DNA from: Alphaproteobacteria bacterium
GTDB taxonomy: Bacteria > Pseudomonadota > Alphaproteobacteria > SP197
Direction of reading: 5' to 3'
Assembly (NCBI GenBank): GCA_016869675.1
Contig: VGDP01000020.1
Span: forward strand, 1-57,123
DNA: 57,123 nucleotides
Below are positions 32,318 through 55,136 of this stretch, piece by piece. The notes beneath the pieces were generated by a model that was given only the letters and a program-made list of their open reading frames with translations, made no database searches and had not been told where the DNA came from. The position numbers and the translations under genes are program-made. How positions within the stretch are numbered: the first letter of the stretch is position 1; each line of letters starts with the position of its first letter.

Positions 32318-33044
32318 AGGTCAATTCCGCGCCCGACTCGTCGCGAACGCTGCCGCCGGCTGCGCGCAGCACCGCGTGACCGGCGGCCGTGTCCCATTCC
32401 ATGGTGCGGCCGAAGCGGGGATAGATGTCGGCCTCGCCCGATGCGACCAGCCCGAACTTGAGGGATGAGCCAGCGCCGCGCGACTGGGTGATGCCGTGGT
32501 CATCGAGGAAGGTTTGTGTGCGATCGTCCAGGTGCAATCGACTGACCGCGGCGACGGCGCCGACGGCCGGCATCGGCCGCGCCCGCAGTCGGCTGGCCGG
32601 CTCGCCCGAACGCGCCATGAACGCGCCACGATCGTCGGCGAAGTAGCACACGCCCAGCGCCGGCGCCAAGACCACGCCCATGCCGGGTACGCCATGGTCG
32701 ACCAACGCGATGTTGACCGTGAACTCGCCATTCTGACTAAGGAACTCCTTGGTACCGTCGAGTGGATCGACCAGCCAGAAGCGGCTGCCGACCTGGGTCG
32801 GAACGCCGTCACGTGCCACCGTTTCCTCGGCGATGACGGGGATATGGGGTGTCAGGGCCGCCAAACCAGCGACGATGACCCGTTCGGCGGCTTCGTCGGC
32901 CACCGTGACCGGGCTGGAATCGCCCTTCAGACGCGCCTCGGCCTTGCCGTAATGCTGGAGGATAACGGCGCCGGCGCGCTCCGCCAGGGTACGCAGGTCG
33001 TCGATCCGGACCGCGGGCGCGTCAACCATCATCGCACCGATCAT
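32262..33044 (-). CDS. cysQ: 3'(2'),5'-bisphosphate nucleotidase
   Basis: The 260-residue inositol-monophosphatase-superfamily enzyme shows DSSPVTVADEAAERVI, PVIAEETVA, WLVDPLDGTKEFLSQNGEFT (metal-binding DPLDGT) and EWDTAAGHAVLRAAGG. CysQ removes the 3'-phosphate of PAP from sulfate assimilation and is often membrane-associated. It begins near MIGAMMVDAP at 33044. The adjoining 55 bases hold the promoter region shared with the interrupted gene at 33100. It is upstream of and overlaps tsaC. Confidence 0.92.
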   Translation of the reverse strand: MIGAMMVDAPAVRIDDLRTLAERAGAVILQHYGKAEARLKGDSSPVTVADEAAERVIVAGLAALTPHIPVIAEETVARDGVPTQVGSRFWLVDPLDGTKEFLSQNGEFTVNIALVDHGVPGMGVVLAPALGVCYFADDRGAFMARSGEPASRLRARPMPAVGAVAAVSRLHLDDRTQTFLDDHGITQSRGAGSSLKFGLVASGEADIYPRFGRTMEWDTAAGHAVLRAAGGSVRDESGAELTYGKPGFANPSFIARGANA

Positions 33045-33051
33045 TAGAGAT

Positions 33052-33081
33052 TTGTCAATTAAAGTGCAACACTCCTAGAGT
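33052..33081 (+). promoter_or_regulatory. Possible promoter of the interrupted exported-protein gene
   Basis: TTGTCA (33052-33057) and TAGAGT (33076-33081) are 18 bases apart, 19 bases before the GTG at 33100. The segment is noticeably AT-richer than its flanks. Confidence 0.4.
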
Positions 33082-33099
33082 GTAGCGAGGTCTCGACCC

Positions 33100-33193
33100 G
33101 TGATCTACACGCGGATCCTTTCCATTCTCCTTGCGGCGGTCCTGTGGGCCGTGGCGCCGGCGCGCTCGGCCAAGGTGAAGCGTCAATGTGTGA
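33100..33193 (+). pseudogene. Exported protein, only the signal peptide left before an IS insertion
   Basis: From GTG 33100 (GCGAGG nine bases upstream) the frame reads VIYTRILSILLAAVLWAVAP then ARSAKVKRQCV, a clear signal peptide with an ARSA cleavage site. After about 31 residues it runs into the left end of the IS5-type element at 33194. The rest of the gene is not found after the right end of the element, so downstream DNA was lost or replaced. Family unknown. Confidence 0.6.
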
Positions 33194-33960
33194 GAGCTGA
33201 TCCCGAAAGAAGTCGGGTCGGGAGAGTCGGTTGTGACTCTATGGGCGGCAACCTTGCCGAGGAGGTTGCCCGATGTGGAAGCCCGAGCACCGTGTCGCCG
33301 CGGATCGCCGTGGCCTGCGCTATCCGAGCGACATGATGGATGGGGAATGGACGCTGGTGGTGAGGTGGAGCGCATCCATCACGCGCTCTACGTGGCGGTC
33401 CGCGAGAAGGAAGGTCGCGAGGCGAGCCTGTCGGCCGCCGTCATCGATAGCCAGAGCGCCAGGGCGGCGCAAAAAGGGGGCCTCGATCGATGCGCAGGGC
33501 TACGACGCGGGCAAGAAGGTCACGGGTCGCAAGCGCCACATCCTCGTCGATACCCTCGGCCTCCTTTTGAATGTCGTGGTCCATCCGGCCTCGGTCCAGG
33601 ATCGCGATGGTGCCTTCGATCTGTTGCGGCGGACCTGCCGTCTGTTCCCCTTCGTCGAGCGCATCGTCGCCGACGCCGCGTACCAGGGACCGAAGATGGC
33701 GGCCGCCATCGCCAAGACCGGCGCCTGGAAGCTGGAGATCGTCAAGCGCACCGAGCCGCATCGCTTCGTCGTCCTGCCCAAGCGACGGGTCGTCGAACGC
33801 AGCTTCGCCTGGATCGGCCGCAACCGCCGTCTCACGCGCGACTTCGAGCGCTACGCCCGAACCGTCGCCGCCTTCGTCCGACTCGCCATGATCCGCGTCA
33901 TGCTCCGACGCTTGACCCGGCCAGCCCCCTGGTCCTGACCGTAACTTCCAGGATCGGCTC
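33194..33960 (+). mobile_element. IS5-family (IS427-like) insertion sequence remnant
   Basis: Imperfect terminal inverted repeats are visible. The left end reads GAGCTGATCCCGAAAGAAGT from 33194; the right end, read backwards from 33960, is GAGCCGATCCTGGAAGTTAC. About 13 of the first 16 positions match. Inside is a defective DDE transposase gene. The right end coincides with the start of a lower-G+C block carrying dppABCDF. No target duplication is evident, so the element probably recombined after insertion. Confidence 0.75.
33273..33938 (+). pseudogene. IS5-family transposase with internal deletion and frameshift
   Basis: The start MWKPEHRVAADRRGLRYPSD is that of many IS427-group transposases. 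After MMDGEWTLV about 60-65 residues, including the first catalytic Asp region, are missing; the next recognisable piece, VERIHHALYVAVREKEGREA then VIDSQSARAAQKGG, is in another frame. Near the run CAAAAAGGGGG (about 33469-33480) the frame returns to GYDAGKKVTGRKRHILVDTL, then ERIVADAAYQGPKMAAA and RRVVERSFAWIGRNRRLTRD. The deletion alone abolishes activity. Confidence 0.85.
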
Positions 33961-34150
33961 AAACGGCCATCGAAGCGCAGCTTTCTAACTGATTGCGGGG
34001 GGGGACTTCCCTAATTTTGCGACTGTCTTTTGGGTGAATTGACAGGCCGTCGCAAAAGGTGTTTTTGTTGCGCCGATTCCGGCGGGCGTCGCTACGCTCC
34101 AGGCCGGGACCGTAACAACAAAAGAACTGCAACGAACGGGGAGATTCCAA

Positions 34151-35742
34151 GTGAAAAAAAGCTGCTCCTGGCCTCAGTGGCCTTGGCGGCGTCTATGGTT
34201 TTTGCCAATGGTGCAATGGCCAAGACGTTCGTCTATTGTACGGAAGGTAGCCCGGAAACATTCAATCCGGCCCTGACCACCGCGGGCACCACGCTGAACG
34301 CGACTGCGATTCCGGTCTACAACACTTTGATCCAGATCGAATGGGGCGGCACGGCGGCCGTTCCGGGCCTGGCGGAATCCTGGTCCTTCTCGGACGATGG
34401 TTTGACCATGACCCTCAATCTGCGCAAGGGCGTCAGCTGGCACACGACTGCCTACTTCACGCCGAGCCGCGAGTTCAATGCAGATGACGTGGTCTTCACC
34501 TTTGAGCGTATGCTCAAGGCCGATCATCCCTACCATCCGATCAGCGGCGCGACCTATGACTACTTCAACGACGTGGGTATGCCGGGCCTCCTGGCCTCGA
34601 TCGAAAAGGTCGATGACTATACGGTGAACTTTCACCTGACGACGAGAAATTCGACAGTGGTGTCGATGCTGACGCTGAGTTCTTTCTCGATCACCTCAGC
34701 TGAGTACGCCGAACAGATGATGGCTGCCGGCACCCCGGAGAAGCTCGATCTGCAACCGGTTGGCACCGGACCTTTTGCCTGGGTCAGCTACGAAACCGAC
34801 ACGCAGATTAACTACGTCGCCAATCCCAACTATTGGGAAGGCGCGCCGAAGATCGACGAGTTGGTCTTCTCGATCACGCCTGACAACTCCGTGCGTTTCG
34901 CAAAGATGCAGGCTGGCGAATGCAACTTCATGGCCTACCCGAACCCGGCCGACCTTGAAGCGATGAAGGCCGATTCCAACCTGCAGGTAGTCCAGCAGGA
35001 AGGCTTCAACATCGGCTATCTCGCCTTCAACACCGAAAAGGCCCCTTTCAACGACAAGCGTGTCCGTCAGGCGATTTCGCACGCCATCGACAAGGCCGCG
35101 ATCATGGAAGCGGTCTATCAAGGTGCGGGCACGCCTGCGATCAACTTCATTCCGCCGGGCCTGTGGTCTTACAACACGAGCGTTGAAGACGTCACCTACG
35201 ACCCTGAATTGGCCCGCAAGATGCTTGCCGAAGCTGGTGTCGCAGACGGCTTCAAAGCTACGCTTTGGTACCTGCCAGTGCAACGCCCCTACAACCCCAA
35301 TGGTAAGTTGATGGGCGAGTTGATGCAGGCTGACCTGGCCAAGGTGGGCATCGCCGTTGAATTGGTGACCTATGAATGGGCCGAGTATCGCAAGCGCGTC
35401 CGCGCTGGCGAACATGATTTGGTCATGCTGGGTTGGACTGGCGATTACGGCGACCCGGACAACTTTTTCGGCGCCCTCCTCAGTTGCGCCGCAGCTCCGG
35501 AATCCTCGTCGCGCTGGTGCTACGAGCAGTTTGATAGCTTGATTACCCAATCCGCCCAGATCACCGATCTGGCCGAGCGGACCAAGCTCTACGAAGAGGC
35601 TCAGGTCATCTTCAAGGAAGAAGCGCCTGTCTACACCGTCGCCCATTCGTTGGTGTCGGAAATCATGTCCGCCAGCGTGAGCGGCTACAAGATGAGCGTC
35701 TTTGGCGCTCACGACTTCAAGTTCGTCGATATCGCTGAGTGA
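34151..35742 (+). CDS. dppA: Dipeptide-binding protein, start codon out of frame
   Basis: The mature protein follows E. coli DppA throughout: KTFVYCTEGSPETFNPALTT, PVGTGPFAWVSYETDTQINY, ECNFMAYPNPADLEAMKADS, IPPGLWSYNTSVEDVTYDPE and VMLGWTGDYGDPDNFFGALL. It binds di- and tripeptides in the periplasm for the DppBCDF transporter. The signal peptide KKLLLASVALAASMVFANGA is present. The expected start GTG at 34151, with GGGGAGA upstream, is followed by seven A's, which puts it one base out of frame with the rest; eight A's would give MKKKLLLASV. Either the A-run lost a base or the read is wrong. Otherwise the gene is intact. Confidence 0.88.
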
Positions 35743-35766
35743 ACTTGAGGTAACGATGACTTTGCG

Positions 35767-35805
35767 GGCTGGGCTATCTTTACGGTCGCCCAGCCTCTTT
35801 CTTTT
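35767..35805 (+). terminator. Attenuator or terminator between dppA and dppB
   Basis: GGCTGGGC (35767-35774) pairs perfectly with GCCCAGCC (35788-35795) over a 13-base loop and is followed by TCTTTCTTTT. This is a factor-independent terminator shape, placed where partial termination would keep the binding protein in excess of the membrane components. Confidence 0.75.
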
Positions 35806-35819
35806 GGAGTATACCAACT

Positions 35820-36830
35820 ATTCTTAAGTTTTTTTTGGTCAAGTTCGGCCTTTTGCTTCCATGTTTTATTGGCGTAACCTTGCTGACTTTTTCTATGGTG
35901 CGACTTTTGCCAGGCGACCCGATTGAGTCCATGCTCGGCGAACGGCGCATTGACCCTGCTTACCACGCGGCGATGTTGGAACGTCTAGGCCTCAATCGGC
36001 CGCTCTGGGAGCAATACGGTCTTTACCTTGGGCAGATCGCAAGGGCCGATTTCGGGAAATCTATTGTCACCAACGTACCAGTCATTGAAGAGTTTTTCGC
36101 CCGCTTTCCCGCGACCATCGAACTGTCTTTGAGTGCGATGTTGTTTGCTGTGGTCTTGGGCATACCGATCGGCATATTTGCCGCTCTACGACGGGGCCGG
36201 ATTGGCGATCATATGACGATTGGTGCTGCCATGATCGGCCAGTCGATGCCAATTTTCTGGTGGGGCCAGCTCTTGATCATGCTGGTTTCCATCAATCTGG
36301 GGTGGACCCCGGTTTCAGGTCGTATCTCGGCCGCTTTTTCCGTTCCCTCCGAAACCGGTTTCTTGCTGATCGACACGCTGCTTTCGGGCAAGAAGGGCGC
36401 CTTTGGTTCGGCGCTATCGCACCTTATCTTGCCGACCATTGTGCTGGGCACCATTCCTTTGGCGATCATAGCGCGTATGACGCGCTCGGCTGTGATTGAG
36501 GTTTTGAGCGAAGACTACATTCGCACGGCCAAGGCCAAGGGCCTTCGCCCTTTGCGCATTGTCGGCGTTCATGCTTTGCGAAATGCCTTGATACCAGTGG
36601 TCACCATTGTCGGCTTGCAGACTGGAACCTTGCTGGCTGGCGCGGTTTTGACTGAAACGATTTTCTCCTGGCCGGGCATTGGCAAGTGGATTGTCGGCTC
36701 GCTCGACAAGCGCGACTACCCGGTCATTCAAGGCGGCGTTCTGGTGATCGCCACCGTCGTGATGTGCGTCAATCTGCTGGTTGATCTGATTTACGGTTGG
36801 ATCAATCCGCGCATTAGACGCGCACGTTAG
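35820..36830 (+). CDS. dppB: Dipeptide ABC transporter permease, apparent ATT start
   Basis: The protein is colinear with E. coli DppB: FIGVTLLTFSMVRLLPGDPI, MPIFWWGQLLIMLVSINLGW, DYIRTAKAKGLRPLRIVGVH (EAA loop contacting the ATPases) and LLAGAVLTETIFSWPGIGKW. Six membrane helices are expected. Codon 1 of the E. coli alignment (MLQFILRR) falls on ATT at 35820 (ILKFFLVKFGLLLP), with GGAG ten bases before. The nearest conventional in-frame start is TTG 35835, which would remove part of the first helix. Either ATT is used as a rare start or ATG has mutated. It follows the attenuator after dppA. Confidence 0.88.
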   Translation: MLKFFLVKFGLLLPCFIGVTLLTFSMVRLLPGDPIESMLGERRIDPAYHAAMLERLGLNRPLWEQYGLYLGQIARADFGKSIVTNVPVIEEFFARFPATIELSLSAMLFAVVLGIPIGIFAALRRGRIGDHMTIGAAMIGQSMPIFWWGQLLIMLVSINLGWTPVSGRISAAFSVPSETGFLLIDTLLSGKKGAFGSALSHLILPTIVLGTIPLAIIARMTRSAVIEVLSEDYIRTAKAKGLRPLRIVGVHALRNALIPVVTIVGLQTGTLLAGAVLTETIFSWPGIGKWIVGSLDKRDYPVIQGGVLVIATVVMCVNLLVDLIYGWINPRIRRAR

Positions 36831-36840
36831 GATCGGCCCC

Positions 36841-37767
36841 ATGACAACGACAACTTCGATCGACAAAGACCAGGAAACCAAGAACGAGCCTCTGGCCATG
36901 GCGCCGCTGCCCCCGTGGCGTGAGTTCTGGCGCTATTTTCGCCAAAACAAGGGCGCACTGATTGGCCTCATCTACATTGTGGCTTTGGTGTTTGTGGCGA
37001 TCTTTGCCGATTTCGTCGCGCTCTTTTCGCCCGACGAGCAGTTCCGCGATGCTCTGCTAAAGCCTCCCTCATGGCTTGAAGGCTCTGACCCGCGCTTTTT
37101 GCTGGGAACCGATCCAGCTGGGCGTGACATCCTTTCGCGTCTGATCCATGGGGCGCGGGTCTCTTTGTTGATTGGCACCATCGTGGTGACGCTGTCGCTC
37201 ACCGTTGGTGTGATCTTGGGCCTGCTGGCCGGCTCAATGCGCGGCACAGTCGATTTCCTAATTATGCGCCTTATGGACGTGATATTGTCTGTGCCCAGCC
37301 TGCTTTTAGCTTTGGTGATTGTTGCGATCCTTGATAAGAGCCTGGTCAACGCGATGATCGCCATCGCCATTACATACATTCCTAACTACGCGCGCTTGGC
37401 ACGCTCATCAGTTCTGGCGGAATTGAGCAAGGACTATGTAACCGCCAGCCGTGTTTCAGGGGCCGGTTATCTGCGGTTGATGTTCAAGACGGTGCTGCCG
37501 AATTGCATGGGTCCCCTGATCGTGCTGGCGTCGCTGATCTTCTCTGGGGCCATTCTCGATGCGGCGGCCCTAGGCTTCTTGGGGTTGGGCGCGCAGGCGC
37601 CCACCGCCGAATGGGGCACCATGTTGGCCGATACCTTGCAGTACATCCGCCGCGCTCCCTGGGTGGTGACGACGCCGGGCGTGATGATCCTGATCACCGT
37701 TTTGGCCTTCAATCTGATGGGCGATGGGCTGCGCGATGCCCTCGACCCCAAGTTGAAGCGGAGCTGA
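36841..37767 (+). CDS. dppC: Dipeptide ABC transporter permease
   Basis: The 308-residue inner-membrane protein matches DppC. It has a cytoplasmic N-terminus with PPWREFWRYFRQNKGALIGL, LLGTDPAGRDILSRLIHGAR (OppC-type signature), DYVTASRVSGAGYLRLMFKT (EAA loop) and a C-terminal LAFNLMGDGLRDALDPKLKR. It forms the translocation pore with DppB. It starts ten bases after the dppB stop and is followed by dppD after four bases. Confidence 0.95.
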   Translation: MTTTTSIDKDQETKNEPLAMAPLPPWREFWRYFRQNKGALIGLIYIVALVFVAIFADFVALFSPDEQFRDALLKPPSWLEGSDPRFLLGTDPAGRDILSRLIHGARVSLLIGTIVVTLSLTVGVILGLLAGSMRGTVDFLIMRLMDVILSVPSLLLALVIVAILDKSLVNAMIAIAITYIPNYARLARSSVLAELSKDYVTASRVSGAGYLRLMFKTVLPNCMGPLIVLASLIFSGAILDAAALGFLGLGAQAPTAEWGTMLADTLQYIRRAPWVVTTPGVMILITVLAFNLMGDGLRDALDPKLKRS

Positions 37768-37771
37768 CCTC

Positions 37772-38770
37772 ATGGCGCTTCTTGAAATCCGCAATCTCTC
37801 TGTCGAATTCGCCACAGCGCACGGCCCCTTCCGTGCCGTTGACGGCATCGATCTGGATGTCGGCGCCAATGACGTGGTTGGCATCGTGGGCGAATCGGGC
37901 TCTGGCAAGTCGGTCACCATGCTGGCGCTGATGGGCCTCTTGCCCTGGACCGCCAAAGTCACCGCCGACCATATGACTTTCGATGGTAAGAACTTGCTGA
38001 CTTTAAAGCCAAGAGAACGCCGCCGGCTGGTGGGCAAGGACTTGGCGATGATCTTTCAAGAGCCGATGACCAGCCTTAATCCTTGCTTCACCGTCGGTTT
38101 CCAGATCATGGAATCGATCAAGACGCACTTGGGCGGCTCCAAGCGCGAACTGCGCCGCCGAGCTGCCGAGCTCTTCGATCTGGTCGGCATTCCCGATCCC
38201 GAGCGTCGTCTTGGCTCCTTTCCGCACCAAATGTCGGGCGGCATGAACCAGCGTGTGATGATCGCCATGTCGCTCGCCTGCAGCCCACGGCTTTTGATCG
38301 CCGACGAACCGACCACCGCGCTGGATGTGACCATCCAGGCGCAGATCCTGGATTTGCTTGTTTCTTTGCAGAAGAAAAACGGCATGGCGCTGATCCTCAT
38401 CACCCATTCCATGGGCGTGGTGGCCGAGGCGACCAAGCGCGTGGTGGTGATGTACGCCGGTCAGCAGGTCGAAGTTCGCGACGTCGAGCCGCTACTTGCC
38501 GAACCGCGCCATCCCTACGGCGCCGCGCTTCTCAGTGCCTTGCCGGAGCGCAGCGCCGGTGCCAAGCGTCTGCCAACCATTCAAGGTGTGGTGCCTGGCG
38601 TGCTGGATCGCCCCAAAGGCTGTCTCTTCTCGCCGCGCTGCGCTTTTGCCGATGCGCGCTGCAAGGCCGAGCGCCCGCCGCTGGCGGACGATGATGGCGA
38701 GGGTCGCCTGCGTTGTTTCTATCCGCTGGCCGCCGATGGCAAGCCGGCCAAGATGAAGGAAAGCGCATAA
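37772..38770 (+). CDS. dppD: Dipeptide ABC transporter ATP-binding protein
   Basis: The 332-residue ATPase shows Walker A GIVGESGSGKSVTML, Q-loop AMIFQEPMTSLNPC, signature MSGGMNQRVMIAM, Walker B LLIADEPTTALDVTIQAQIL and a C-terminal oligopeptide-transporter domain with LFSPRCAFADARCKAERPPL; this Cys-rich tail resembles the Fe-S-binding extension described for Dpp/Opp ATPases. It pairs with DppF to drive import. Confidence 0.95.
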   Translation: MALLEIRNLSVEFATAHGPFRAVDGIDLDVGANDVVGIVGESGSGKSVTMLALMGLLPWTAKVTADHMTFDGKNLLTLKPRERRRLVGKDLAMIFQEPMTSLNPCFTVGFQIMESIKTHLGGSKRELRRRAAELFDLVGIPDPERRLGSFPHQMSGGMNQRVMIAMSLACSPRLLIADEPTTALDVTIQAQILDLLVSLQKKNGMALILITHSMGVVAEATKRVVVMYAGQQVEVRDVEPLLAEPRHPYGAALLSALPERSAGAKRLPTIQGVVPGVLDRPKGCLFSPRCAFADARCKAERPPLADDDGEGRLRCFYPLAADGKPAKMKESA

Positions 38771-38771
38771 G

Positions 38772-39764
38772 ATGAGCGGCGTCGTCCTCGAAGCAACCGA
38801 CCTTGCGCGCTTCTATCAGCTAAAGCGCGGCTTCATGCGAAAGCCGGCGACGGTGCGCGCCTTGGCCGGTGCCTCTTTCACCCTAAAGGCGGGCAAGACC
38901 CTGGCGGTGGTGGGCGAATCGGGTTGTGGCAAATCCACGCTCGCCCGCGCGGTAACGCTGATTGAAGAACCGACGTCGGGCAAGCTGATCATCGACGGCA
39001 AGGACACCAGCAGCGCGGCCAATCGCAAAGAACTGCGCGAAAAGGTGCAGATCGTTTTTCAGGATCCCTATGGCTCGCTCAATCCGCGCAAAAAAGTGCG
39101 CGACATCATCGGCGAGCCTTTGGCGATCAACCGGGATCATTCGGCTTCCGAGCGCGAAGGTCTGGTCAAGGAGATGATGGTCAAGGTCGGCCTTCGCCCC
39201 GAACACGTCACGCGCTACCCGCATATGTTTTCCGGCGGTCAGCGCCAACGCATCGCCATTGCCCGTGCTTTGATGCTGCGTCCGCAAGTGCTGGTGGCCG
39301 ACGAGCCGGTCTCCGCACTCGATCTTTCGGTGCAGGCCCAGGTGCTGAACCTGCTGATGGACCTGCAGGCCGAATTCGATTTGGCCTACCTTTTTATCTC
39401 GCACGACCTGTCGGTGGTGCAGCACATCGCCGACGAACTGATGGTGATGTATCTGGGCAGGCCGGTGGAGCAAGGAGCCAAGGGCCGCATCTTCCAGACG
39501 CCGCGCCACCCTTACACGCGCGCGCTGCTCTCTGCCACGCCCGTCGCCGATCCGGCTAAGCGCCGCCAGCGCATTCCCTTGACCGGCGAGCTGCCGTCGC
39601 CCTTGAACCCGCCATCGGGCTGCGCCTTTCACCGTCGCTGTCCTTTTGCTATCGAACAGTGCCGGCAAGACCGGCCGGAACTGCGCTCGGTCGACAGCCG
39701 CTTGGTAGCCTGCCACCGCGCGGAAGAAGATTTGCCGGCGCCGAGTGCGGCGGCTGCGGCCTAA
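38772..39764 (+). CDS. dppF: Dipeptide ABC transporter ATP-binding protein
   Basis: The 330-residue second ATPase has Walker A LAVVGESGCGKSTLARAV, Q-loop QIVFQDPYGSLNPRKKVRD, signature FSGGQRQRIAIARALML, Walker B VLVADEPVSALDLSVQAQVL and the C-terminal FHRRCPFAIEQCRQDRPELR. It starts one base after the dppD stop. The lower-G+C block ends at its stop codon (39762-39764); the very next bases belong to an unrelated TPR-like fragment. Confidence 0.95.
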   Translation: MSGVVLEATDLARFYQLKRGFMRKPATVRALAGASFTLKAGKTLAVVGESGCGKSTLARAVTLIEEPTSGKLIIDGKDTSSAANRKELREKVQIVFQDPYGSLNPRKKVRDIIGEPLAINRDHSASEREGLVKEMMVKVGLRPEHVTRYPHMFSGGQRQRIAIARALMLRPQVLVADEPVSALDLSVQAQVLNLLMDLQAEFDLAYLFISHDLSVVQHIADELMVMYLGRPVEQGAKGRIFQTPRHPYTRALLSATPVADPAKRRQRIPLTGELPSPLNPPSGCAFHRRCPFAIEQCRQDRPELRSVDSRLVACHRAEEDLPAPSAAAAA

Positions 39765-46062: not shown

Positions 46063-48102
46063 ATGGCCGGCTACGAGGCTCTTCTGCGCCCCTTCCGCCT
46101 GAAGGGCATGACGCTGCGCAACCGCGTCATGTCGACCTCGCACGCGCCGCGCTTCACCGAGCACGCCGGCATGCCCGGCGAGCGCTACCAGCTCTACCAC
46201 GAGGAGAAGGCGCGGGGCGGCATCGCGCTCACCTGCTTCGGCGGCTCCTCGTCGGTCGCCGAGGACAGCCCGCTGCCCTTCGGCCAGATCGACTGCTCGG
46301 ACGACCGCATCATCCCGTTCTTCCAGTCCTTCGCGAAGCGCGTGCACGGCCACGGCAGCCGGCTGATCTGTCAGATCACCCACATCGGCCGGCGCGCCAA
46401 CACCGACCAGCACCACTGGCTGCCGCTGATCTCGCCCAGCCGCGTGCGCGAGACGCTGCACCGCGGCTTTCCCAAGGAGGCCGAGGACTGGGACATCCGC
46501 CGCACGATCCAACGCTACGCCGCCGCGGCCCAACGCTGCAAGGACGGCGGGCTCGACGGCGTCGAGGTCATCGCCGCGGCCCAGCACCTGATGGATTCGT
46601 TCCTGTCGCCCATGGTCAACCAGCGCACCGACCGCTACGGCGGCAGCCTGGAAAACCGCATGCGCTTCGGGCTCGAGGTGTTCGAGGCCATGCGCAAGGC
46701 GGTCGGCGACGGCTACGTCATCGGCATGCGTCTGTCCGGCGACGAGATGGTCGACGGCGGCTCGACCGCCGAGGACTGCCTGACCATCGCCCAGACCTAC
46801 GCGAAATCCGGCCTGATCGACTATCTCAACGTCTATCAGGGTCAGGCGGCCAATTTCGCCGGCTTGGCCGTGCTGATGCCGAACATGTCGTTCCCCTCGG
46901 CGCCGTTCCTCTACCTGGCCCGCGCGGTCAAGGCGCGCGTCGGCATCCCGGTGTTCCACGCCTCGGCGATCCGCGACCTGGCGACCGCAGCGCGCGCCAT
47001 CGAGGGCGGCCATGTGGACATGGTCGCGATGACGCGGGCGCACATCGCCGACCCGCACATCGTGCGCAAGCTCATGGAGGGACACCCCGACGACATCCGC
47101 CAGTGCGTCGGCGCCGGCTACTGCGTCGACGGCATCCAGGAAGGCGGCACCGCGTGCATCCAGAACGCGGCCACGGGGCGCGAAGCGACCATGCCGCACA
47201 TCATCCCGCGCGCGGCGAACCGCCGGACGGTGGTGGTGGCTGGCGGTGGTCCGGCCGGGCTGGAGGCCGCGCGCGTGGCGGCGGCTCGCGGCCATCGCGT
47301 CGTGCTGTTCGAGGCGACGCCACGGCTGGGCGGTCAGATCAACCTGGCGGCCAAGGCGACCTGGCGCCAGAACCTGAGCGGCATCCCGCGCTGGCTGGAA
47401 GGCCAGGTGCGCCGCCACGGCGCGTCGGTCAAGCTGAACACGCCGGCGACCGTCGAGGCCATCGAGGCCGAGGAACCCGACGTGGTGATCGTCGCCACCG
47501 GTGGCGTGCCCTGGCGCGGTCTGGCCGAGGGCGCCGATATGGTCGCCACCACGTGGGACGTCCTGGAGGAACGGGTTGCCGTGGCCGGCGCGGCGCTGAT
47601 CTACGACGAGCTCGGCGGCCATCACGCGCCGAGCACGGCGGAATTCATGGCGGCGCGCGGTGCGGCGGTCGAGTTCGCCACGCCCGATCGCGCTCCGGCG
47701 CTCGAAATGGGCGGCACCAACTTCCCGATTCACTTCCGCGAGCTGGCCAAGCAGGGGGTGGTGTTCACCCCCGACGCGCGGCTGGTCGCGGTGCGGCGCG
47801 ACGGTGCGCGCCTCGCGGCGCGCCTGGTCAACGAGTACACGCGCAAGGCCGAGGAGCGCATCGTCGATCAGGTCGTGGTCGAGTACGGCACGCTGCCGGT
47901 GGACGCGCTCTACTTCGCGCTCAAGCACCGCTCGATCAACCGGGGCGAAGCGGACCTGCCGGCGCTGCTCGCCGGCCGGCCGCAGAAGCTGAAGCGCAAC
48001 CCGGACGGTCGCTACCAGCTGTTCCGCGTTGGCGACGCGGTGGCCGGGCGCAACATCCACGCGGCGATCTACGATTCGCTGCGGCTGTGCAAGGACCTGT
48101 GA
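46063..48102 (+). CDS. OYE/TMADH-type flavoprotein, N-methylproline demethylase-like (copy 1)
   Basis: The 679-residue protein has an FMN TIM-barrel (LKGMTLRNRVMSTSHAPRF, ICQITHIGRRANTDQHHW), a cysteine cluster at 348-365, and C-terminal FAD/NAD domains (TVVVAGGGPAGLEAARVAAA). In TMADH and dienoyl-CoA reductase the cluster has four cysteines (CxxCxxC plus one). Here it reads CVGAGYC with Ala351 in place of the second Cys, and Cys365 is retained. This group includes enzymes annotated as N-methylproline demethylases, which remove N-methyl groups during betaine breakdown. A homologue in tandem follows. Confidence 0.88.
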   Translation: MAGYEALLRPFRLKGMTLRNRVMSTSHAPRFTEHAGMPGERYQLYHEEKARGGIALTCFGGSSSVAEDSPLPFGQIDCSDDRIIPFFQSFAKRVHGHGSRLICQITHIGRRANTDQHHWLPLISPSRVRETLHRGFPKEAEDWDIRRTIQRYAAAAQRCKDGGLDGVEVIAAAQHLMDSFLSPMVNQRTDRYGGSLENRMRFGLEVFEAMRKAVGDGYVIGMRLSGDEMVDGGSTAEDCLTIAQTYAKSGLIDYLNVYQGQAANFAGLAVLMPNMSFPSAPFLYLARAVKARVGIPVFHASAIRDLATAARAIEGGHVDMVAMTRAHIADPHIVRKLMEGHPDDIRQCVGAGYCVDGIQEGGTACIQNAATGREATMPHIIPRAANRRTVVVAGGGPAGLEAARVAAARGHRVVLFEATPRLGGQINLAAKATWRQNLSGIPRWLEGQVRRHGASVKLNTPATVEAIEAEEPDVVIVATGGVPWRGLAEGADMVATTWDVLEERVAVAGAALIYDELGGHHAPSTAEFMAARGAAVEFATPDRAPALEMGGTNFPIHFRELAKQGVVFTPDARLVAVRRDGARLAARLVNEYTRKAEERIVDQVVVEYGTLPVDALYFALKHRSINRGEADLPALLAGRPQKLKRNPDGRYQLFRVGDAVAGRNIHAAIYDSLRLCKDL

Positions 48103-48140
48103 TGGCGTCGAAGGGGGAACCGACCGTCACCCTCTCCCCT

Positions 48141-48163
48141 CCCTCTCCCGCAAGGGGAGAGGG
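48141..48163. repeat. Palindromic CCCTCTCCC hairpin element
   Basis: CCCTCTCCC (48141-48149) pairs perfectly with GGGAGAGGG (48155-48163) around a five-base loop. It ends six bases before the ATG at 48170, so its right arm covers the ribosome-binding region (GGGAGAGGG). A related copy is at 10263-10288. Confidence 0.65.
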
Positions 48164-48169
48164 CAAACC

Positions 48170-50227
48170 ATGCGCCACAGCACGATGACTGGCCACGACG
48201 CCCTGCTGAAGCCGTTCACCATCAAGGGTCTCACGATCCGCAACCGGGTCATGAGCACCAGCCACGCGCCCGGCTACGCCGACCACGGCGTGCCCGGCGA
48301 ACGCTACCAGCTCTACCACGAGGAGAAAGCCAAGGGCGGCATCGGGCTGACCATGTTCGGCGGTTCGTCCTCGATCTCGCCCGACAGCCCGGCGACCGCG
48401 TTCGGCCAGGTCTCGGTGGCGGACGACGCGGTCGTGCCGCACCTCAAGGCGTTCGCCGACCGCGTGCACCGCCACGGCGCGGCGATCATGTGCCAGATCA
48501 GCCACATGGGCCGGCGCAACCGGTGGGACGCCGCCGACTGGCTGCCGCTGGTGGCGCCGTCGGTGACGCGCGAACCGCAGCACCGCGCGCTGCCCAAGGC
48601 GATCGAGGACTTCGACATCACCCGCATCGTCGGCGACTACGCGCGTGCCGCGCGCCGCTGCCGCGACAGCGGGCTCGACGGCGTCGAGGTCATGGTGGCG
48701 GGGCCGCACCTGATCAACCAGTTCCTGTCGCCGGCGCTGAACCAACGCAGCGACGAGTACGGCGGCAGCCTGGACAACCGCATGCGCTTCGGCATGGCAG
48801 TGCTGCACGCCGTGCGCCGCGAGGTGGGCGAAGACTACATCGTCGGCGTGCGCTTCACGGCCGACGAACTGATCGAGGGCGGGCTCACGCAGACCGACAT
48901 GTTCGAGGTCGCGCGGCGCATCGCCGCCTCGGGCCTGGTCGACTTCATGAACGTGCAGCACGGCCAGGCGGCCGATCATATGGGGCTCGCCCTGGTCATC
49001 CCGAACATGGCGTTCCCGCCGGCGCCGTTCCTCTATCTGGCCAGCGCGATCAAGGCGGCGGTGCCGCTGCCCGTGTTCCACGCCGGCCGGATCGCCGACC
49101 TGGCCACCGCCGCGCGCGCCGTCGAGGACGGCCATGTCGACATGATCGCCATGACGCGGGCGCACATCGCCGATCCGCACATCGTGCGCAAGCTCATCGA
49201 GGGCCGGCCCGAGCAGATCCGCCAGTGCGTCGGCGCCAACTACTGCATCGACCGGCTCTACACGGGCGCGGGCGCGTTGTGCGTCCAGAACGTCGCCACC
49301 GGGCGCGAGGCGACGATCCCCCACGAGGTCGCCAAGGCCGATGCACGCCGCACCGTCGTGATCGCCGGCGCCGGGCCCGGCGGGCTGGAGGCGGCGCGCG
49401 TCGCCGCGTTGCGCGGCCACCGCGTCGTGCTGTTCGAACGCGAGGCCAAGGTGGGCGGCCAAATCAACATCGCCCAGCGTGCCGGCTGGCGCGAGGCGCT
49501 GGGCGGTATCGCGCGCTGGCTCGAGGCCGAGGTGCGCCGGCTCGGCGTCGATCTGTGGCTCGGTGCCGCCGCGACGTCGGCGCTGATCGAGGCGGAGCGA
49601 CCGGATATCGTGGTCGTCGCCACCGGCGGCCGGCCGAACAAGGGCGCTTTCAAGGGTACCGAGAACGCCACCACGTCGTGGGACGTGCTGACCGGCAAGG
49701 TGCCGGTCGCCGAGAACGTGCTGGTGTTCGACGACGAGGGCCAGCCCCAGGGCGCGAGCGTCGCCGAGTTCGCCGCGACACGCGGCGCCGCGGTCGAGAT
49801 TGCCACGCCGGACCGCATGGTCGCCGAGCAGCTCGGCGCGACCAACTTCGCGATCCATTTGCGCGAGCTGCACAAGCTGAAGGTGATCATGACGCCGAAC
49901 GTGCGCCTGACCGAGGTGGGACGCGAAGGCAACCGTCTGGTCGCCGTGCTGCGCCACGAGTATTCGGGCCAGAAGGAAGAGCGCCTGGTCGACCAGGTCA
50001 TCGCCGAGCACGGCACCGAGCCCGAGGACGAGCTCTACTTTGCGCTCAGGCCGCGCTCGACGAACCTGGGGGAGGTGGACTATCCGGCGCTCCTCGCGGG
50101 CCGGCCGCAGACCGTCGCCACCAACCCGGACGGCCGCTTCCGCCTGTTCCGCATCGGCGACGCCATCGCCAGCCGCACCATCCACAACGCGCTGCTCGAC
50201 GCCATGCGCCATCTGAAGGACGCGTAG
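48170..50227 (+). CDS. OYE/TMADH-type flavoprotein, N-methylproline demethylase-like (copy 2)
   Basis: The 685-residue paralogue of the preceding gene shares the FMN barrel (IKGLTIRNRVMSTSHAPGYA, IMCQISHMGRRNRWDAADW), the altered cluster CVGANYC (Cys353, Ala356, Cys359) plus Cys371, and the FAD/NAD domains (TVVIAGAGPGGLEAARVAAL). Divergence between the copies is substantial in the substrate-facing parts, so they may act on different N-methyl compounds. The start is ATG 48170, or ATG 48185 (MTGHDALL). A hairpin repeat overlaps the ribosome-binding site. The copy lies 67 bases after the first. Confidence 0.88.
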   Translation: MRHSTMTGHDALLKPFTIKGLTIRNRVMSTSHAPGYADHGVPGERYQLYHEEKAKGGIGLTMFGGSSSISPDSPATAFGQVSVADDAVVPHLKAFADRVHRHGAAIMCQISHMGRRNRWDAADWLPLVAPSVTREPQHRALPKAIEDFDITRIVGDYARAARRCRDSGLDGVEVMVAGPHLINQFLSPALNQRSDEYGGSLDNRMRFGMAVLHAVRREVGEDYIVGVRFTADELIEGGLTQTDMFEVARRIAASGLVDFMNVQHGQAADHMGLALVIPNMAFPPAPFLYLASAIKAAVPLPVFHAGRIADLATAARAVEDGHVDMIAMTRAHIADPHIVRKLIEGRPEQIRQCVGANYCIDRLYTGAGALCVQNVATGREATIPHEVAKADARRTVVIAGAGPGGLEAARVAALRGHRVVLFEREAKVGGQINIAQRAGWREALGGIARWLEAEVRRLGVDLWLGAAATSALIEAERPDIVVVATGGRPNKGAFKGTENATTSWDVLTGKVPVAENVLVFDDEGQPQGASVAEFAATRGAAVEIATPDRMVAEQLGATNFAIHLRELHKLKVIMTPNVRLTEVGREGNRLVAVLRHEYSGQKEERLVDQVIAEHGTEPEDELYFALRPRSTNLGEVDYPALLAGRPQTVATNPDGRFRLFRIGDAIASRTIHNALLDAMRHLKDA

Positions 50228-52593: not shown

Positions 52594-52703
52594 CGGCCCA
52601 TACCAGCGACTTTGCCCTAAACCTGGGTTAACGCAGGGCGCGCTGGTGGGTGCGCGGGCCGTTTGCTACAACCCGGCCAAGAAGGTCGCGGGAGGTCCGG
52701 GTC

Positions 52704-55136
52704 ATGATGACGCATGCGCGCGTAGTCGTCGTCGGCGGCGGGGTCGTCGGGGTCAGCATCCTCTACCACTTCGTCAAGAAGGGCTGGCGCGACGTGGTGC
52801 TGGTCGAGAAGGCCGACCTGACACACGGCTCAACCTGGCACGCCGCGGGCCTGCTGCCGTTGTTCAACATGAGCTATTGCGTCGGCCAGATGCATAAGTA
52901 CTCGGTCGACCTCTACAAGTCGCTCGAGGCAGAAACCGGCCAGAACGTCAGCTTCCACGTCACCGGCAACCTGCGGCTGGCGACCAACCGCGAGCGCATG
53001 GACGAGTACAAGAAGTACTGCGGCACCGCGAACACCATCGGCGTGCCGTTCGAGATGATCGGGGTCGACGACGTCAAGAAGCTCTGGCCGCTGTGCAACA
53101 CGGCGGGCCTGGTCGGCGCGCTCTACCACCCGCACGACGGCCACATCGCGCCGGCCGACCTGACCCAGGCGCTGGCCATCGGCGCGCGCAAGGGCGGCGC
53201 CGAGATCTACCGCCGCACCGAGGTGGTCGACATCAAGCCGAAGCCGTCGGGCGAGTGGGACGTGGTTACCGACAAGGGCACGATCACGGCGGGCCTCGTG
53301 GTCACCGCCACCGGTTCGTGGGCGCGCCAGCTCGCCGCCAAGGTCGGGCTGGACCTGCCGGTCATCCCCGTCGAGCACCAGTACCTGGTCACCGACGAGA
53401 TCCCCGAGCTAGTCGAGCGCAGGAAGGCCGGCCTGCCCGAGATGGCGGTGCTTCGCGAATCGGACGCCAGCTACTACATGCGCGAGGAACGCCAGGGCCT
53501 GATCCTCGGGCCCTACGAGAAGGGCGCGCCCGCCTGGGCCGTCGACGGCGTGCCCGCCGGCTTCGGTCAGGAACTGCTGCCCGGCGACATCGAGCGTCTG
53601 GCACCGCACATCGACGCGGCGATCGACCGCGTGCCGGTGTTCGGCAAGGCCGGCATCAAGGACTGCATCAACGGGCCGATCCCCTACACCCCCGACGGCT
53701 CGCCCCTGATCGGGCCGGCCTGGGGGCTCAAGAACTACTGGCTGGCCGAGGGCTTCAGCTTTGGCATCACCGCGGCCGGCGGTGCTGGGCGGTTCCTGGT
53801 GGACTGGATCGTCGACGGCGATCCGGGCACCGACCCCTACGACGTCGACCCGCGCCGCTTCGGCGATTATGCCAACAAGGCGTACACCAAGGCCAAGAAC
53901 GAGGAGGCCTACGAGCACATCTTCGTCGTCCACTACCCGCTCGAGGAGCGCCCCGGCGCGCGCCCGGCCAAGACCAGCCCGAGCTACGACCGCCAGAAGG
54001 CGCTGGGCGCCGTGTTCGGCCAGAAGTTCGGCTGGGAGCGCGCCAACTGGTTCGCGCCCTCGAAGGCCAAGGCGAAGGACAAGTACTCGTTCCGCCGCAC
54101 CAACTTCTTCGAGCCCGTGCGCGAGGAATGCCGCGCCGTGCGCGAGCGGGTCGGCCTCCTGGACCTGACCGGGTTCTCCAAGTTCGAGGTCTCGGGTTCC
54201 GGCGCGACCGCGTACCTGGACGGCATGCTGGCCAACCGCCTGCCCCAGAAGATCGGGCGAATCGGCCTGGCGCACCTGCTGTCCGAGCGCGGCGGCGTGG
54301 TCAGCGAGTTCACCATCACCCGTCTGGCCGAGAACCGCTACTACGTGGTGTGCGCCGCGGCGGCCGAACGCCACGACTTCGACGAGCTATGGCGCCGCCT
54401 GCCGGCCGACGGCTTTGTGCGGCTCGACAACGTGACGGCGGCCATGGGCGTGCTGGTCATCGCCGGACCCAAGAGCCGCGACCTGCTCGCCAAGGTGACG
54501 CGCGCCGATGTCTCGGGCGCCGAGTTCCCGTGGCTGACCAGCCAGCACATCAACGTCGGCGTGGTGCCAGCGCGCGCCATGCGCGTCAACTTCGTGGGCG
54601 AGCTGGGCTGGGAACTGCATCACCCGATCACCGTGCAGAACGCGATCTGGGACGCGCTGATGGACGCCGGCGCCGAATTCGGCATCCAGCCGTTCGGCAT
54701 CCGCGCCATGGATTCGCTGCGCATCGAGAAGAGCTACAAGTACTGGCGCGTCGACCTGACCACCGAGTATTCGGCTTGGCAGGCGGGGCTCGATCGCTTC
54801 GTCCATCTCAACAAAGGGCCGTTCCCGGGGCGCGAGGCGCTGGTCCGCGAGCAGCAGATGGGCGTGCCGCGTCGACTGGTCACGCTCGAATGCGACGTCA
54901 AGGGCATGGACCCGTTCGGCAACGAGCCGATCTGGGCCAAGCGCACCATGGTCGGCCGCGCCACGTCGGGCGCCTACGGCTACACCGTGGGCCGGAGCTT
55001 GGCGCTCGCCTACGTGAACACGGCGCACGCGGCACCCGGTACCGAGCTTGCCATCGAGATCCTGGGCAAGCGCTACCCGGCGCGCGTCATCGCCGACAGC
55101 CCGTGGGACCCGGAGAACGCGCGCCTCCGCGCGTGA
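52704..55136 (+). CDS. Dimethylglycine/sarcosine dehydrogenase-like FAD-GcvT fusion
   Basis: The 810-residue protein, from ATG 52704 with GGAGGT eight bases upstream, combines an FAD oxidoreductase domain (ARVVVVGGGVVGVSILYHFV; HGSTWHAAGLLPLF, with His46 matching the covalent-FAD His of DMGDH) and, from about residue 430, an aminomethyltransferase domain (FFEPVREECRAVRERVGLLD, FVGELGWELHHPITVQNAIW, SGAYGYTVGRSLALAYVNTA). Such enzymes demethylate dimethylglycine or sarcosine-type substrates and pass the C1 unit to tetrahydrofolate. It completes the methylated-amine set of this region. Confidence 0.9.
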   Translation: MMTHARVVVVGGGVVGVSILYHFVKKGWRDVVLVEKADLTHGSTWHAAGLLPLFNMSYCVGQMHKYSVDLYKSLEAETGQNVSFHVTGNLRLATNRERMDEYKKYCGTANTIGVPFEMIGVDDVKKLWPLCNTAGLVGALYHPHDGHIAPADLTQALAIGARKGGAEIYRRTEVVDIKPKPSGEWDVVTDKGTITAGLVVTATGSWARQLAAKVGLDLPVIPVEHQYLVTDEIPELVERRKAGLPEMAVLRESDASYYMREERQGLILGPYEKGAPAWAVDGVPAGFGQELLPGDIERLAPHIDAAIDRVPVFGKAGIKDCINGPIPYTPDGSPLIGPAWGLKNYWLAEGFSFGITAAGGAGRFLVDWIVDGDPGTDPYDVDPRRFGDYANKAYTKAKNEEAYEHIFVVHYPLEERPGARPAKTSPSYDRQKALGAVFGQKFGWERANWFAPSKAKAKDKYSFRRTNFFEPVREECRAVRERVGLLDLTGFSKFEVSGSGATAYLDGMLANRLPQKIGRIGLAHLLSERGGVVSEFTITRLAENRYYVVCAAAAERHDFDELWRRLPADGFVRLDNVTAAMGVLVIAGPKSRDLLAKVTRADVSGAEFPWLTSQHINVGVVPARAMRVNFVGELGWELHHPITVQNAIWDALMDAGAEFGIQPFGIRAMDSLRIEKSYKYWRVDLTTEYSAWQAGLDRFVHLNKGPFPGREALVREQQMGVPRRLVTLECDVKGMDPFGNEPIWAKRTMVGRATSGAYGYTVGRSLALAYVNTAHAAPGTELAIEILGKRYPARVIADSPWDPENARLRA

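Follow-up and report, generated by a model that had tools for sequence, protein, structure and literature searches.

The flavoenzymes DgcA and StcD are responsible for a step in the pathways by which soil, plant-associated and marine bacteria degrade glycine betaine and proline betaine. Deletion of dgcA in V. natriegens abolishes growth on dimethylglycine, according to the portion of PMC12093977 available, and StcD is named in parts of PMC12239276 as the N-methylproline demethylase of stachydrine catabolism. In TMADH, which shares their fold, the iron-sulfur cluster hands electrons singly to ETF, as stated in a section of PMC8097209. Here we analyze two adjacent genes of this group, P0001 and P0002, located on a 57,123-nucleotide stretch of an alphaproteobacterial genome (contig VGDP01000020.1, forward strand, assembly GCA_016869675.1; "the window" hereafter denotes this whole stretch). 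Both gene products have an alanine where TMADH has the second of its four cluster cysteines. DgcA and StcD are known enzymes; the new part is that the second cluster cysteine is absent throughout their branch, and no report of its absence from DgcA or StcD was found in the open-access literature that we searched, a body of text that leaves most subscription journals outside.

P0001 (46063..48102, + strand, 679 aa) and its tandem paralogue P0002 (48185..50227, + strand, 680 aa, with an alternative start, the in-frame ATG at 48170, that would add five residues) are 59% identical, and in both a domain search found an Oxidored_FMN barrel followed by a Rossmann domain. Translation of the cluster loop gives C348-VGA351GY-C354-x10-C365 in P0001 (47104..47157, + strand; CVGAGYCVDGIQEGGTAC) and C348-VGA351NY-C354-x11-C366 in P0002 (49226..49282, + strand; CVGANYCIDRLYTGAGALC). 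In pairwise alignments, Ala351 of both proteins stands opposite the second cluster cysteine of TMADH (CIGCNVC) and of the E. coli 2,4-dienoyl-CoA reductase DCR (CIGCNQAC), and the remaining three cysteines align with those of the two enzymes. A first-pass annotation of this DNA had pointed to alanine at the second Fe-S cysteine of both copies, and the translations and alignments bear this out. It had numbered the alanines 351 and 356; the former is correct for P0001, whereas in P0002 the residue is also 351 if translation begins at 48185, and 356 fits the ATG at 48170. Compared with the signature CxxCxx(x)C...C of the Fe-S/OYE-type flavoenzymes (TMADH, DCR, NCR and the BaiCD superfamily), the pair shares the barrel and C-terminal Rossmann domain (seen as domains in both proteins and as a full-length fold for P0002) and retains three of the four cysteines.

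To place the pair among its relatives, we collected homologues from 289 genomes in the window's class and 398 across its phylum, as well as from named genome contigs (the best 80 loci), obtaining 278 matches of at least 400 residues that reduce to 245 unique sequences. Among these, 194 form one clade together with both window proteins and the Pseudomonas dgcA product (FastTree support 0.993). Cys348, Cys354 and Cys366 are present in all 194 members, in line with the earlier statement that three cluster cysteines are retained in both copies. Residue 351 is alanine in 188, leucine in 3, methionine in 2 and valine in 1, and is never Asp, His, Ser or Glu; alanine is thus conserved among relatives of N-methylproline demethylase, a check that had been proposed with the original observation, and cysteine occurs in 0 of 194. 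Outside the clade, 47 of 51 sequences have Cys351, three have alanine (L003, L146 and L148) and one has threonine (L236), these 51 rows being a non-random set made up of relatives from the window's own genome, a part of the hits of searches with TIGR03997 and L003, and chance neighbours of fetched loci. Redundancy has little bearing on the pattern: when the clade is reduced to 92 sequences by clustering at 80% identity, alanine occurs in 86, leucine in 3, methionine in 2, valine in 1 and cysteine in 0 of 92. Four partial sequences were left out of the alignment (L001, L013, L147 and L171, the last of which reads CVGAAWC). P0001 is among the rows of the 245-sequence census and of the 80% clustering, and lies outside the IQ-TREE set of 66 representatives and the 111-row residue list referred to below.

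In the IQ-TREE phylogeny of the 66 representatives, the clade receives an SH-aLRT value of 100 and comprises 37 rows, all with a residue other than cysteine at 351. The non-cysteine state requires three changes on this tree, and L003, L146, L148 and L236 may represent separate losses of the second cysteine. Branches among the out-of-clade rows are weak, so that the placement of L003, L146 and L148 is tentative and the non-cysteine state may have arisen once or several times. L146 combines alanine at the second cysteine with a longer motif spacing like that of dienoyl-CoA reductase. Grouping with dgcA and with an annotated stcD in a supported clade, and a three-cysteine motif with a nonpolar residue 351, assign the window pair to the DgcA/StcD clade. 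Since alanine is the rule of this whole clade, it occurs independently of the tandem duplication. Adjacent paralogue copies were also found in two other genomes (G114 and G217), and two relatives encoded elsewhere, in other genomes, fall into one group with P0001 and P0002 (SH-aLRT 93), the node of the pair itself being unresolved. With this branching and the 59% identity, it is plausible that the two proteins act on different substrates.

We then looked for a residue that could replace the lost ligand, counting C, D, E, H, S, T and Y as ligand types over the whole chain, with positions assigned by alignment column and not by distance from the cluster. A fourth cysteine ligand had been named as the finding that would overturn the original observation; no conserved column of this kind exists in the clade, where over all columns (n=194) the next cysteine positions reach 51% (677), 35% (450) and 30% (660). 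Within residues 320-384, no ligand-type residue combines conservation of at least 98% with specificity for the clade: those that reach this level (T324, R325, D330, K336, N369, E375 and the three cysteines) are the commonest residues outside the clade as well. An earlier list from 111 rows, at a 95% threshold, also gave Y31, D67, S68, H133, H175, D356, Y353, Y359, D672 and others. Around the motif, the clade typically has G350 (193/194), an aromatic residue at 353 (Tyr in 185, Phe in 4 and Trp in 1, next to His in 3 and Ala in 1) and D356 (180/194). The last two cysteines are separated by 11 residues in 185 members, by 10 in 1 and by 5-7 in 8 (n=194). That the cysteine is kept even where the loop is only 5-7 residues long argues that the cluster site is under selection, as expected for a working metal site. 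Strongly shortened loops occur in L184, L185 and L186 (CVGATHCQGTARPSC, CVGATHCQSPYRPHC and CVGASYCMYKKTNC, respectively), in which the three cysteines and the alanine are still there.

A parallel to this motif is found in ferredoxins. The parts of PMC6237146 consulted assign the motif CXXA/GXXC(X)nCP to [3Fe-4S] ferredoxins and CXXCXXC to [4Fe-4S] ones, and report that the examined ferredoxins with other non-cysteine residues in that slot were isolated as [3Fe-4S] forms. As in P0001 and P0002, the second cysteine of such [3Fe-4S] ferredoxins is replaced by alanine (PMC6237146, same parts), an example in our own data being L143 (CLKAGEC). Our search with Fer4_15 returned six matches, with CxxH in L138, L140, L141 and L142, CxxA in L143 and CxxC in L139, and a PDB search with L138 returned eight chains, with CxxA in none of the five that were aligned. 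With a single CxxA match from these searches, the motif parallel rests mainly on the consulted portion of PMC6237146.

An AlphaFold2 model of P0002, built from a 33-sequence alignment (mean pLDDT 92.2), matches TMADH (2tmd) with a Z score of 51.6 over 646 residues at 2.0 Å and 27% identity, with three of the four cluster cysteines aligned. Full-length matches were also obtained to 2-naphthoyl-CoA reductase (NCR), histamine dehydrogenase (HADH) and DCR. By sequence, the closest solved chains for both window proteins are NCR (6qkg) and DCR (1ps9); these differ from the window pair in keeping four cluster cysteines (CTACNQGC, where the printed alignment has a gap, and CIGCNQAC, respectively), and their substrates are acyl-CoAs. 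TMADH also differs from P0001 and P0002 in having, besides the second cluster cysteine, a flavin-linking Cys30, both of which are missing from the pair; the position equivalent to Cys30, residue 28, is alanine in P0002. The description of the pair as TMADH-type is therefore right for the fold and loose otherwise, given the closer sequence match to NCR and DCR and the absence of Cys30. In the clade as a whole, residue 28 is Ala in 96, Glu in 93, Ser in 3 and a gap in 2 (n=194), with no cysteine among the 192 filled rows, so that the FMN is expected to be bound non-covalently; the split between Ala and Glu may mark different substrates. Tyr442 of TMADH, an exit for electrons to ETF, lies approximately opposite position 441, a glycine in 150/194 clade members, in a part where the alignment is rough. 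Assignment to the mycofactocin-associated OYE 2 family (TIGR03997) was rejected, as the two proteins score 519 and 567 bits against a curated cut-off of 793.

The described members of the clade provide the closest comparison for function. DgcA of Pseudomonas and Vibrio falls in the same clade as P0001 and P0002 with about 50% full-length identity, and DgcA from the Pseudomonas and Enterovibrio loci shares the motif CVGANYC with P0002. The Pseudomonas locus is ordered M19 dipeptidase, DUF5943, dgcA, dgcB (DUF3483 with 4Fe-4S and CCG domains), ETF alpha and ETF beta (gene names from Pfam searches on P. nitroreducens L098, the DUF5943 gene from Pseudomonas sp. L103), and the same order is given for dgcA in the available portion of PMC12093977. 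StcD is represented by an annotated stcD on a Rhizobium etli plasmid, which has etfB, etfA, a glutathione-dependent formaldehyde dehydrogenase and an S-formylglutathione hydrolase nearby, and which reads CVGANYCLDRIYQGGAAYC in the cluster loop, as does an unannotated S. meliloti relative. Among the best 80 named loci, a dgcB relative is found near at least 36, an ETF gene near at least 40 and an MttB relative near at least 10, counts that are lower bounds since 12 of these loci span less than 15 kb. The named clade members are thus oxidative N-demethylases, and their gene neighbours indicate that they produce formaldehyde and deliver electrons to ETF.

Based on these comparisons, we propose that P0001 and P0002 are Fe-S flavoenzymes of the DgcA/StcD clade, that is, N-demethylases whose three-cysteine [3Fe-4S] cluster passes electrons from FMN to ETF or DgcB, a reading to which we assign a probability of roughly 0.6. 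They would probably catalyse the oxidative N-demethylation of methylated amino acids or of products of betaine breakdown. The substrate N-methyl group would be oxidised by the non-covalent FMN in the N-terminal barrel, which would take two electrons from the substrate and transfer them one at a time to the cluster held by Cys 348, 354 and 365/366. From the cluster, electrons would presumably move on to ETF, in some relatives with participation of the Fe-S protein DgcB, and hydrolysis of the resulting imine would yield formaldehyde and the demethylated amine. By analogy with the ferredoxin motif, the cluster is most likely of the [3Fe-4S] type, because the second cysteine is replaced by non-coordinating Ala, Leu or Val (rarely Met) and the search for a substitute turned up no invariant residue.

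Several observations weigh against this proposal. The ferredoxin fold is unrelated to that of P0001 and P0002, so that only the motif is convergent. [4Fe-4S] clusters held by three cysteines and a water or small ligand are well known, as in aconitase and radical SAM enzymes. Seven clade-specific ligand-type residues are conserved in at least 97% of filled rows over the whole chain (Y41, E47, S61, E130, H299, D305 and H667). Furthermore, the best DgcB candidate in the window's genome is an 18-bit match, none being convincing, and the clear ETF gene pair of that genome is on another contig; the electron acceptor for P0001 and P0002 is therefore a guess.

The strongest competitor, which we regard as possible though doubtful, is a [4Fe-4S] cluster in which one iron has no cysteine and is bound instead by water or hydroxide, a small thiol, a main-chain atom, Asp356 or a distant side chain, and which may convert to [3Fe-4S] on oxidation. 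Besides the three-cysteine [4Fe-4S] clusters already mentioned, Asp356 speaks for it, being Asp in 180/194 clade members against Gly in 38/51 sequences outside, as do the clade-specific H299 (190/194), D305 (192/194) and H667 (189/193), and, in the consulted parts of PMC6237146, the P. furiosus ferredoxin has Asp in the same motif slot. Yet none of D356, H299, D305 and H667 is invariant, unlike the three cysteines: 12 clade members have Glu, Tyr, Ser, Asn or Gly instead of Asp356, and neither H299 nor H667 occurs in the out-of-clade sequences with alanine (three) or threonine (one) at the second cysteine. Clade members always have a nonpolar residue where the ligand was lost, and CxxA/GxxC in ferredoxins is the [3Fe-4S] motif (PMC6237146, the same parts). 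As none of the seven clade-specific residues in the whole chain is invariant, a fourth ligand from among them is unlikely. Of the two options raised in the first-pass annotation, a fourth ligand from elsewhere or a cluster of another type, the latter is favoured by the lack of a conserved fourth cysteine and by the ferredoxin motif, whereas the former has no clade-specific candidate at the 98% level within 320-384 but may still draw on one of the seven non-invariant residues elsewhere in the chain. We consider it improbable that the cluster was lost altogether, with the three cysteines being structural or binding another metal and the FMN electrons passing directly to ETF or DgcB. One of four ligands is missing throughout the clade, and in part of it DgcB, with its 4Fe-4S domains, could serve as the relay instead, but the three cysteines persist in 194/194 members, including those with shortened loops and those from loci with no dgcB found nearby, and the window's genome has no convincing DgcB. 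A sequencing error or a mutation confined to the window pair, to which we would give next to no weight, is ruled out by the census, in which 192 further clade sequences have the same residue class.

Extending the [3Fe-4S] proposal, we think it slightly better than an even bet that the whole DgcA/StcD branch forms a naturally occurring [3Fe-4S] group among the TMADH/OYE Fe-S flavoenzymes, one that lost the ligand at its base, with the cluster potential probably shifted for one-electron delivery to ETF or DgcB, and that the step was perhaps repeated in L003, L146, L148 and L236. If the cluster is indeed [3Fe-4S], a [4Fe-4S] label transferred from TMADH would be a misassignment in this branch, and a natural comparison of the branch with TMADH could show how electron delivery to ETF is set by the type of cluster.

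The genes surrounding the pair in the window fit a role in methylated-amine catabolism. Directly upstream lies a FAD-dependent amine/amino acid oxidoreductase (DAO, PF01266; 44433..46052, + strand), whose domain begins at residue 142 and whose real start is probably downstream of 44433. An MttB-family methyltransferase (PF06253; 42571..44133, - strand), probably part of the same catabolic theme, is an open frame without an in-frame stop; as it has no in-frame TAG, it is probably of the non-pyrrolysine kind. Downstream, domain searches identified a DAO-GcvT fusion resembling dimethylglycine/sarcosine dehydrogenase (52650..55136, + strand). In contrast to dgcA, which sits beside dgcB and ETF genes, the window pair has neither dgcB nor ETF genes linked to it in the window; a Pfam search for DUF3483 gave no match even in control genomes and so carries no weight by itself. 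The neighbours of R. etli stcD (P5C reductase, a betaine transporter, etfBA and the formaldehyde genes) likewise differ from those in the window.

Besides the window pair, the window's own genome (G000) has, on other contigs, 12 matches with E values of 5e-29 or lower. Ten of these relatives were read (L003-L012), with the second cluster cysteine present in nine and alanine in L003; five TMADH-like ones (L007, L008, L009, L011 and L012) also have cysteine at the flavin-linking position, and L010 (G000:C15:11799-13433) has one TAA inside the match and is perhaps a decayed gene. Four-cysteine relatives were also found on two contigs from a viral collection (L122 and L123), which may be bacterial DNA. 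Elsewhere in the window, positions 33001-39000 have a G+C content of 0.59, against about 0.69-0.71 on both sides; this segment covers an oligopeptide-type ABC transporter (SBP_bac_5, two permeases and two ATPases) and was possibly acquired.

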